NCBI GenBank assembly: GCA_902796885.1
Contig: CADBQY010000057.1
Span: 1-39,358 of the forward strand
Reading direction: 5' to 3'
DNA: 39,358 bases
Source of the DNA: an uncultured Planctomycetota bacterium
GTDB lineage: Bacteria; Planctomycetota; Planctomycetia; Pirellulales; Thermoguttaceae
The notes under the pieces are model-generated. The model saw only the letters and a program-made list of their open reading frames with translations, made no database searches and was not told the DNA's origin. Position numbers and translations under genes: made by a program. Positions 18,961 to 36,350 of this stretch are shown piece by piece; position 1 is the stretch's first letter; every line of letters begins with the position of its first letter.

Positions 18961-20628
18961 ATGAAGCGATTCCTTCCGATTCCGTTTACGCGGAGGCGCC
19001 GTTTCGAATGCGAGAAAATCCGCCCGGTTTGGCGGTTTGTCCTTCTCGTTCTGTGCGCTTTTCTTATGGCGATCCCCGCTCCGGGAAAAGAATCGCTCGC
19101 CGGCAAGAAGAACGCGTTTGCCCTCGCTTACGATAAAGCCGCTCCTTCGGTCGTGAGCATTCGGGGGGAAAAGAAGTTCGACGTGGCCGAGGTTCGCAAC
19201 GACGCCTATAAACGTCAACTTGTCGAAAAGTCAAGACAAGAGAGCGTGACCGGTATGGGGTCGGGGATCATCATGGATCAGCGGGGCTACGTGATCACGA
19301 ACTACCATGTGGTCAAAGGACTTCAGAATATCCAGGTCACCACGTTCGACGGTGAAGTCTATCGAAATATCGAATTTGTCGGGCATGACCCGAAGACCGA
19401 CCTGGCTCTTCTTCGGATCGTCGCCAACCGTGAGTTCACCCCGATCACATTCGGCAAGAACGAGCGGGTCTACGTCTGCGAGGACGTTCTGGCGATCGGC
19501 AACCCGTTCGGTTACGCCAACGCCGCCGCCCGCGGGATTGTCAGCGGGCTGAACCGTCCCCTCACTTCGAGCGAGACCGTCTCCTATGAGAGAACGATTC
19601 AGACCGACACGCCGATCAACCCCGGAAATTCCGGTGGTCCTCTGGTGAACCTCGATGGCGAGATGATCGGGATGAACGCCGCGGTTCGCGATGACGCGCA
19701 GAATATCGCGTTTGCCATTCCGGTCGACATTGTGACCTCGGTCACCGACCGGCTGATCCGCGCCTCGGTCGCCAAGGTGAATCACCACGGACTCCATCTG
19801 GAAGAGATGGTCGTTCCGACCGACGAAAACCCGCTTGGCGAGAGCGAGACCGACTGTGTCAGCGTCGCGTCGGTCGATCCGGGGAGTCCCGCAGCCGCCG
19901 CCGGACTTGAAGCGGGGGATATCCTTCTCGAATCGAACGGAATCAAAATCCACTCGTCCCTCGACTTTACCCGCTCGCTGATCGGCGTCTCGCTCAGCGA
20001 CAATCTCGATATCAAGGTGAAGAGGCAAGGAAAACAGTTTGATAAGAAGGTCGCGATGAGCGGCGCGTCGGCCTCTACGGGAGAAGTTCTTTACGCCGCG
20101 CAGCGTCCCGCGACGGCGCGGGGACTTGACGAGCCGGATTCGGAGAGCGGATTCAGCGAAGCGAAAGCGGCGCCGTCCTATTCGCGGAACGTCGGCGCCG
20201 GCACCGGCGAACATCTTTCGCTGGTCGGCAGTACCAAAGAGGAGGTCGTTTATAAGATTCTCGGAATCGAAGCCGAGCCGATCGACAAGTCGGAATTTCT
20301 TCGCCGTTACCCGTTCCTGGCGCAGGTCTCGATGGACAACTACAAAATTATGCCTTCCGGCGGCGCGGTCGTTACTCGGGTGAGCGACACGACCCTCTTT
20401 AAGACGACAAAGAGCGGAATTCAAGTCGGCGACGTGATTTTCGGGTTTGTGATCGACAACTCCTCGAGCAACCGCTGGGCGACCACCTCGATCGATATTC
20501 TCTATGTCATCGCCCGGAAATGGAACGATTTTGCCGCCGAATCGGTCAACGCCAAGGTTTACCTGGTTCGCGGCGGCACCCCCTATTTCCTCGATATTCC
20601 GATGACTCCCGTTTCTGGACTCCGCTGA
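18961..20628 (+). CDS. HtrA/DegP-type periplasmic serine protease with PDZ domain
   Basis: A 555-residue exported trypsin-like protease for envelope protein quality control. A basic n-region of about 25 residues precedes the hydrophobic signal helix (FVLLVLCAFLMAIP, 26-39). The catalytic triad is complete: His116 in VITNYHVVKG, Asp147 in HDPKTDLALL and Ser224 in NPGNSGGPLV. A PDZ domain follows (about 275-365; DPGSPAAAAGLEAGDILLE). A second, divergent PDZ-like region lies at about 420-550 (SGIQVGDVIFGF). Some planctomycete HtrA relatives have such a C-terminal extension. No Shine-Dalgarno sequence is visible before ATG 18961; the gap upstream forms three hairpins. The gene ends at a strong terminator. 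Confidence 0.93.
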   Translation: MKRFLPIPFTRRRRFECEKIRPVWRFVLLVLCAFLMAIPAPGKESLAGKKNAFALAYDKAAPSVVSIRGEKKFDVAEVRNDAYKRQLVEKSRQESVTGMGSGIIMDQRGYVITNYHVVKGLQNIQVTTFDGEVYRNIEFVGHDPKTDLALLRIVANREFTPITFGKNERVYVCEDVLAIGNPFGYANAAARGIVSGLNRPLTSSETVSYERTIQTDTPINPGNSGGPLVNLDGEMIGMNAAVRDDAQNIAFAIPVDIVTSVTDRLIRASVAKVNHHGLHLEEMVVPTDENPLGESETDCVSVASVDPGSPAAAAGLEAGDILLESNGIKIHSSLDFTRSLIGVSLSDNLDIKVKRQGKQFDKKVAMSGASASTGEVLYAAQRPATARGLDEPDSESGFSEAKAAPSYSRNVGAGTGEHLSLVGSTKEEVVYKILGIEAEPIDKSEFLRRYPFLAQVSMDNYKIMPSGGAVVTRVSDTTLFKTTKSGIQVGDVIFGFVIDNSSSNRWATTSIDILYVIARKWNDFAAESVNAKVYLVRGGTPYFLDIPMTPVSGLR

Positions 20629-20650: not shown

Positions 20651-20681
20651 AGACTGCGGTAAAGTACCGCAGTCTTTTTTT
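20651..20681 (+). terminator. Rho-independent terminator after the HtrA gene
   Basis: A perfect 10-bp stem AGACTGCGGT/ACCGCAGTCT with a 5-base loop is followed by an uninterrupted T-run. It lies 22 bases after the htrA stop. Confidence 0.93.
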
Positions 20682-20710
20682 ATCGGCGCTATGGAATAAC
20701 GGCAGATTGC

Positions 20711-20749: not shown

Positions 20750-20861
20750 TGACTCCTTTTGATCTCTCGTACGGGGCTTTCTTCCCGCCTTTTCGCCGTG
20801 GGAAGGGTGAAAACCGGGTAAAACCGAAAAAAACAGAAAAAATCTTAAAGCTTTCCGACTT

Positions 20862-20876
20862 TGGCACGTTCTTTGC
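20862..20876 (+). promoter_or_regulatory. Sigma-54 (-24/-12) promoter of the HTH gene
   Basis: TGGCACG (20862-20868), four bases, then TTGC (20873-20876) match the sigma-54 consensus TGGCACG-N4-TTGC exactly, with the invariant GG and GC 12 bases apart. The expected start lies near 20888, giving a leader of about 158 bases to the HTH gene. Confidence 0.65.
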
Positions 20877-21045
20877 CTTCATAAATATTTGCCGCAGTTG
20901 AGATGATCGCACGCCGCGATCAGAAAAACCACTTGGCACGAAAGAAAGAACGCCCTTCGGCAACCGTTCTATGGCGATAAGGAAAACGAGAGCCGGAGCG
21001 TTCGAAACATATCCGTTAGCGGTTTTATACCGGTAAGGAGGTACG

Positions 21046-21624
21046 ATGATGAGCAGTCCCGCAATTCCCAGCATCCCCATTACCACCGGTAGCATTGCCG
21101 GTTTTGTCTGTCCCGCTCCGGTCGTTTCGGCCGGAGAGGCGAAAAAAGCCCTTCCCAGAGAAGGGAAAGCGGCATATCATCGGATTGCGAAGGTTCGCGA
21201 AAATCAGGGTATGTCGATCCAAAGCTGCGCGCGGAAACTCGGAATCTCCGTGTCGGAAGCGCGCGAACAGGAAAAACCGACCTCCGATTTGACGATCTCG
21301 CAGCTGACGGCCTGGAAAAGGGTCCTCGAGGTTCCGTTTTCGGAAATCGTGGTTCAGACTGAAGATGAACCCGCCGATCCGATCCGTAACCGCGCCATGC
21401 TCCTGAAAGTGATGAAGTCGGTGAAATCGGTTCGCCAACACTCGCGTGAAGAGCGTATTCGGATTCTGGCCGACAACGCGATCTCGCAACTCGTGGCCTT
21501 GATGCCGGAACTTGAGCAGGTCAGCGCGTGGCCCGACGTCGGTCAGTCGCACGAATCGCGCGCGCCCGGCGTGGTGGCAACCCGCCGATTCGACCCCGAA
21601 GTCGAACAGCGTCTTCGGTTCTGA
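21046..21624 (+). CDS. Planctomycete-type helix-turn-helix regulator
   Basis: A cytosolic 192-residue protein with an XRE-like HTH region at about 44-105 (IAKVRENQGMSIQSCARKLG, then LTISQLTAWKRVLEVP). A helical C-terminal part follows (MLLKVMKSVKSV, LVALMPELEQV). I know close relatives mainly from Planctomycetota, where they are annotated only as HTH or hypothetical proteins; a target is not known to me. A perfect AAGGAGGT (21035-21042) lies 3 bases before ATG 21046 and 6 before a second ATG at 21049, so 21049 may be the main start. It is transcribed from a sigma-54-type promoter, which is unusual for an XRE-like regulator, and ends at its own terminator. Confidence 0.85.
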   Translation: MMSSPAIPSIPITTGSIAGFVCPAPVVSAGEAKKALPREGKAAYHRIAKVRENQGMSIQSCARKLGISVSEAREQEKPTSDLTISQLTAWKRVLEVPFSEIVVQTEDEPADPIRNRAMLLKVMKSVKSVRQHSREERIRILADNAISQLVALMPELEQVSAWPDVGQSHESRAPGVVATRRFDPEVEQRLRF

Positions 21625-21657: not shown

Positions 21658-21687
21658 GCGCCGGACTTTCGTCCGGCGCTTTTTTTT
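21658..21687 (+). terminator. Rho-independent terminator after the HTH gene
   Basis: A perfect 9-bp stem GCGCCGGAC/GTCCGGCGC with a TTTC loop is followed by eight T. It lies 33 bases after the HTH stop. Confidence 0.94.
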
Positions 21688-21763
21688 GCGTTCGGTTTCG
21701 GGTAAAATGGTTTCGTGTGACGGGCGGCTTTCGTCCCGCGCCCGAAAGGTTCTTCCGACCGGA

Positions 21764-22591
21764 ATGAAAAGTATGCTTCTGGAAAAAGACGAATATGTCG
21801 AACAGCGTTTCTTTTTCAAGACGTTTTTAGAACGTCTGGACGACGGCTATTCGTCTCAGGAAATCCTCCGCGCCATGAAAAGCGAGGTTCTTTCGACCGT
21901 CAAACTTCCGATGGCGATCGACTATCTCCTGGCTGAAATCAAACTGCGAGGGACGATGTCGGGCGCGATGGCGGTGATGAAACATTACTTTTCCCCGTTT
22001 CAGACTTTTGTCGTCAAAGAGAGCGAGACCGAAAAGGGACGGTTTGACTTTAAAACCGCCCTTCGGATTCTGGAACGCCTTGCCGGTTACATGGCGGGGG
22101 AACCGACGCCCCAGGGAGTCTTCTTCTATCAGTTCGAGACGGTCAGTCGGAATCGGCTCGGGTACGACGAGTCGCTCGGCGCGATTGCCGCCGATCCGAT
22201 GTACGACGACGAGTGGGCCCGCTGGATCAACGTCATTCTGCGCCGCCAGCTCGGGGCGATCGACCTGGCGGCGCTCATTTACGTACGGAGCGCGTATTAC
22301 CGTCAGCGGACGGGGGACAATCCGGACGAAGAGGTTCTTTTCGGCGAGCGGGAAGGGCGGATCGGCTGGGCGTCACGCGGACGGGATCCGGCGTTTCTCT
22401 TTTCGGCGCTCAACCGGCATCTGGGGTACCCGAAAGTTCCGCGCCCCCTGCACGTTCACGAAGAGGAAAATCAGGTTCCGATCCTCAAAAGGCGGATCGC
22501 CCTTCTCGAAAGCCGCGTCATGCTCCTCGAAGAACAACTTAAGGGGGGGATCAATCTGGAACGTTTTTACGTCAAAGAAGAAGACAAATGA
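21764..22591 (+). CDS. Conserved planctomycete protein with C-terminal coiled coil, function unknown
   Basis: A soluble protein of about 275 residues without signal peptide. It is mostly helical: EYVEQRFFFKTFLERL, then a core with YQFETVSRNRLGYDESL, WINVILRRQLGAIDLAALIYVRS and LFGEREGRIGWASRGRDP. A predicted coiled coil closes it (LKRRIALLESRVMLLEEQLKG). I associate this architecture with an uncharacterised family found widely in Planctomycetota, and I can give no function. Starts at ATG 21764 or 21773 are both possible; AAAGG at 21745-21749 is rather far from either. A TAAAAT -10-like box lies at 21703-21708 just after the HTH terminator, without a good -35. It converges on thiL with a 30-base gap. 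Confidence 0.82.
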   Translation: MKSMLLEKDEYVEQRFFFKTFLERLDDGYSSQEILRAMKSEVLSTVKLPMAIDYLLAEIKLRGTMSGAMAVMKHYFSPFQTFVVKESETEKGRFDFKTALRILERLAGYMAGEPTPQGVFFYQFETVSRNRLGYDESLGAIAADPMYDDEWARWINVILRRQLGAIDLAALIYVRSAYYRQRTGDNPDEEVLFGEREGRIGWASRGRDPAFLFSALNRHLGYPKVPRPLHVHEEENQVPILKRRIALLESRVMLLEEQLKGGINLERFYVKEEDK

Positions 22592-36277: not shown

Positions 36278-36306
36278 ATTTTAGTTTCTTTCTTTCCGCT
36301 TGCCAA
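36278..36306 (-). promoter_or_regulatory. Sigma-70-type promoter of the sialidase-like gene
   Basis: On the minus strand TTGGCA (36306-36301) and TAAAAT (36283-36278) are separated by 17 bases. They lie about 57 bases before ATG 36221, which supports that start over the longer frame. Confidence 0.65.
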
Positions 36307-36350
36307 TATGACATTCAAAACGCGGAAAGAACCCTTGATCGGAGTATCCA

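Follow-up and report, generated by a model that had tools for sequence, protein, structure and literature searches.

A conserved -24/-12 box points to sigma-54 control of an XRE-like regulator gene in a planctomycete genus

Introduction

Genes for GroEL, GroES, GrpE, DnaJ and DnaK and protease genes are predicted to be enriched for sigma-54 promoters in the Planctomycetia (Carrera-Reyna et al. 2025, PMC12316311), in a study that also cites Studholme and Dixon 2004 on the enhancer-binding proteins (EBPs) of Pirellula. In Rhodopirellula baltica, chaperones are heat-induced and rpoN is present; the study in question saw no change in the transcripts of rpoN and of the annotated rpoH and offered no explanation of how the chaperones are controlled (PMC2754498). 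An XRE-family regulator gene of Cereibacter sphaeroides is reported to be transcribed by RpoN3 with its own activator (PMC11999139).

In the locus described here, a -24/-12 box lies before an XRE-like gene in a planctomycete genome in which several chaperone genes are preceded by boxes of the same kind. We analysed a 39,358-nt stretch of DNA (the window) from an uncultured Planctomycetota bacterium whose genome assembly comprises 3.14 Mb in 215 contigs and is 81% complete.

Results

An exact -24/-12 box precedes an XRE-like gene

The original prediction was that the consensus TGGCACG-N4-TTGC occurs exactly at 20862-20876, on the right strand and 170 nt upstream of an HTH gene. This proved correct: both the box and ORF 21046-21624 lie on the (+) strand at that distance, and TGGCACGTTCTTTGC is the sole exact match in the 39 kb window, with no exact match in 100 dinucleotide shuffles of it. 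The site combines exact TGGCAC and TTGC elements with a GG-to-GC spacing of 10 bp and ranks top of the window in a weighted -24/-12 score, at 0.98, the runner-up reaching 0.85. The features of the locus are:

18961..20628, + strand: HtrA/DegP-like protease, upstream neighbour (Trypsin_2 and PDZ domains; order kept in 7/7 species)
20651..20682, + strand: predicted intrinsic terminator between the protease gene and the HTH unit (stem kept in close species)
20790..20813, strand not assigned: weak candidate enhancer dyad TTTTCGCCGTGGGAAGGGTGAAAA, an imperfect inverted repeat
20862..20876, + strand: predicted sigma-54 -24/-12 promoter, TGGCACG-TTCT-TTGC
20886..20890, + strand: predicted transcription start, ~20888, placed by the start-site distance to the -12 GC
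20888..21045, + strand: predicted 5' leader of ~158 nt with a conserved GAAAGAAAGAACGCC block and two hairpins (four-species alignment, consensus fold)
~21036..21043, + strand: Shine-Dalgarno sequence AAGGAGGT, kept in close relatives
21046..21624, + strand: XRE-like HTH protein of 192 aa (P0001)
21658..21689, + strand: predicted intrinsic terminator of the HTH gene
21776..22591, + strand: conserved protein of unknown function, downstream neighbour (adjoins the HTH gene in 7/7 species and in G026 and G053)

The HTH gene family is widespread, with homologues in 84/99 related genomes. The HTH domain, at about residues 41-101 of 192, is compact in the structural model (block pLDDT 79-95), and the rest of the protein is modelled with low confidence. 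A Foldseek search with the model returned the XRE-type folds C.Esp1396I, XRE, SinR and HipB (probability 1.0, best E=3.5e-3, a modest value). At the sequence level, the Pfam HTH_3 match was weak (E=0.006, below cut-off) and no significant PDB relatives were found. Because the G003 orthologue retains the second ATG alone, translation may begin at ATG 21049 rather than at 21046. The gene is flanked by two intrinsic terminators and is therefore probably a separate single-gene unit; the protein encoded at 21776-22591 matches nothing in Pfam or NCBIfam. The HTH gene also has a true paralogue (C130; G003 C315), with a conserved sigma-54-like box ~575-750 nt upstream and conserved non-coding sequence between box and gene (L132 4200-4900, L133 7590-8420).

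The box is conserved throughout the genus

A further expectation was that an alignment of the regions upstream of homologous HTH genes would reveal the box in relatives, and this was borne out within the genus. In 7/7 congeneric species, a box scoring 0.90-1.0 lies 100-190 nt before the orthologous HTH gene, a range above the null: when 400-nt stretches of the window were reversed, none of 1500 scored >0.86. Across the same seven species TGGCA[CT] and TTGC are invariant, and the intergenic surroundings diverge. Outside the genus a strong box was found at 1/40 HTH homologues, the lone case being G044 (TGGCACGCGGTTTGC, 72 nt before the start), which argues that sigma-54 control of the HTH gene would be a lineage-specific addition.

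RpoN and four enhancer-binding proteins are encoded in the genome

The genome was also checked for the machinery that such a promoter would call for, and it encodes RpoN together with four true EBPs with full AAA+ domains: one GAF/NifA-like, two of response-regulator type and one with an FHA domain. The GAF/NifA-like EBP is encoded near GSIII, amtB and a glutamate-synthase-like gene (L126 640-10856, L014), the GAF and glutamate-synthase names being our own reading of the sequences. EBPs of the genus sort into four classes by best match, of which the FHA class is the sole one detected in 7/7 congeneric genomes; where the remaining classes have gaps, incomplete bins may be the cause.

Sibling boxes mark chaperone, nitrogen and ECF sigma genes

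Genome-wide, TGGCAC-N5-TTGC occurs 8 times, as does a reversed-pattern control, so that there is no enrichment by count. All eight matches lie 89-187 nt before a correctly oriented start (ORFs as picked by the analyst), and the genes downstream are groES-groEL, a second groEL, dnaK, clpB, amtB, an ECF sigma gene and, twice, an HTH gene. The second HTH copy, on contig C31, looked like a boxed paralogue but was rejected: over 14.6 kb this locus (L130, G000 C31) shares 99.7% identity with a contig of the G003 species (L131, G003 C227), which identifies C31 as bin contamination, and the copy was therefore not counted as independent evidence from this genome. Orthologues of the sibling-box genes, and GSIII, are recurrently boxed across the genus.

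The ECF sigma gene and its orthologues (L016 1501-2296) have a conserved sigma-54 box in 7/7 species and TTTTTACAATCGTTAAA-like repeats upstream in 5/7; sigma-54 and the ECF sigma factor may form a cascade that has an activator of its own. At GSIII, a TTTACAAAAATGTAAA-like palindrome accompanies the sigma-54 box, with the GAF EBP nearby.

A palindrome accompanies chaperone promoters across the order

The groES, groEL2 and dnaK promoters have in common a palindrome, TGYCANNNTGRCA, which precedes the box by ~100-185 nt; clpB has imperfect copies alone, at +34. Four genomic sites match the stricter form TGYCAWWWTGRCA, where the reversed control has one; groES, groEL2 and dnaK account for three of the four. 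The fourth (window 36301-36313, between BNR-repeat and peptidase-like genes) was set aside as chance, since no box scoring >=0.82 lies within 1.5 kb of it. Across the order, 28/30 groES loci (L134-L163) carry the palindrome and 23/30 a box above the null maximum; at the dnaK loci (L190-L219), the palindrome is found in 26/30 and a box score of at least 0.88 in 18, with many CGGCAC variants.

We also searched for the regulators and sites of other heat-shock systems. HrcA was detected in 0/60 relatives, with controls working, and no CIRCE was seen before groES at 30 loci across the order. For RpoH, 0/30 relatives reached the cut-off, and other sigma-70-family proteins were present. Sigma-54 may not be the sole promoter of groES and groEL2, as conserved TATAAT-like hexamers lie nearby.

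The activator of the HTH promoter probably differs from that of the chaperones

Since the HTH box falls in the same genome-wide set as those of groES, groEL2, dnaK and clpB, the HTH promoter could be sigma-54 dependent and yet driven by the chaperone EBP, which would make the HTH gene a heat-shock gene, narrowly defined. We consider this unlikely, because the TGYCANNNTGRCA palindrome of groES, groEL2 and dnaK is absent from every HTH promoter of the genus. A chaperone UAS at the HTH gene was accordingly rejected, and the activator is probably a different one. The nitrogen-type EBP is argued against by G002 and G006, in which the HTH box is kept and neither a GAF EBP nor exact GSIII and amtB boxes were found. 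On these sequence comparisons, the cognate EBP of the HTH promoter is more likely to be of the FHA type or of either response-regulator type than of the GAF nitrogen type.

No clear conserved EBP enhancer site was found upstream of the HTH promoters of the genus. The pattern TTTC-N1..8-GAAA occurs in 6/7 species against 1.5 expected, a comparison that involves a pattern picked post hoc and having no exact match in this genome. Upstream 10-mers common to close species were tried as a source of an HTH-specific UAS and rejected, as they only trace the upstream protease gene and the terminator that follows it.

Downstream of the box, one leader hairpin is promoter-proximal and the other lies directly before the Shine-Dalgarno sequence. 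Both arms of the promoter-proximal stem vary from species to species, with modest support from four sequences, and a search of the leader against Rfam returned no family, every match falling below the gathering score.

Sigma-70 and chance readings of the same bases

The same bases can be read as the -35 element of a sigma-70 promoter, TTGGCA-17-AATATT, with 9/12 consensus matches in this genome, in which case the sigma-54 likeness would be incidental. In the six other species, however, the match to TATAAT is 1-3/6 at the same spacing and 2-4 at the best of spacings from 15 to 19 nt, and it is instead the TTGC of the -12 element that is invariant in 7/7. As the hexamer is not conserved across the genus, the sigma-70 reading was rejected as very improbable. 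That the box is a chance sigma-54-like string without function, as the equal genome-wide counts (8 and 8) might suggest, is scarcely credible when 8/8 matches stand in promoter position on the analyst's ORF picks and this one is kept in 7/7 species amid diverging surroundings.

Discussion

We conclude that 20862-20876 is very probably a functional sigma-54 promoter and that the HTH regulator would act in the genus's network as a second-tier factor induced by a signal. The original prediction that the regulator is under enhancer-dependent control thus gains support from rpoN, the four EBPs and the conservation of the box in 7/7 species; these, like the box itself and its sibling promoters, were established by computation, and from them we infer transcription from the box and its enhancer dependence. 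Under this mechanism, sigma-54 RNA polymerase would bind the -24/-12 elements and be held as a closed complex until an AAA+ ATPase EBP, switched on by its own signal, opened it. Promoter geometry predicts a transcription start near 20888; the transcript would run through the structured ~158 nt leader and the XRE-like gene to end at 21658-21689. The HTH regulator would in this way take its place beside chaperone, nitrogen and ECF sigma genes in the sigma-54 network of the genus.

In one gut lineage, these computed results put a widespread and uncharacterised planctomycete regulator under enhancer-dependent control. Of wider interest is the predicted sigma-54 network of chaperone genes that would contain the HTH promoter, as sigma-54 together with a palindrome-recognising activator is a candidate answer to how chaperones are controlled in planctomycetes in which neither HrcA nor RpoH is detectable. 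A broader model, on which we are evenly divided, is that sigma-54 and a dedicated EBP at TGYCANNNTGRCA govern the heat-shock/chaperone regulon of the Pirellulales, substituting for HrcA/CIRCE or sigma-32, and that an XRE regulator and an ECF sigma factor have in one genus been recruited to the same sigma-54 network as downstream tiers.

Sigma-54 control of planctomycete chaperones has already been predicted statistically, and that of an XRE gene has been reported. Worked out here, and not found in the literature searched (most subscription journals lay outside the search), are how the HTH gene is controlled, the palindrome, and the lack of HrcA and RpoH. The Planctomycetia sigma-54 regulon (PMC12316311) agrees with our results in assigning predicted sigma-54 promoters to chaperone genes, likewise by computation; it differs in being a class-wide COG enrichment, the available passages of which name no XRE regulator, UAS palindrome or member of this genus. 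The Cereibacter RpoN3 case (PMC11999139), as far as its available passages describe it, is alike in that an XRE gene is under a sigma-54, whereas its setting is an Alphaproteobacterium and a flagellar context, and the two regulators are likened by family name and not by protein homology. The original prediction took XRE-like regulators to be rarely sigma-54 dependent, and the Cereibacter gene gives at least one reported precedent. Rhodopirellula baltica (PMC2754498) is, like the bacterium studied here, a planctomycete with rpoN, and its chaperones are heat-induced; an EBP-dependent route would need no change in the rpoN transcript under heat.
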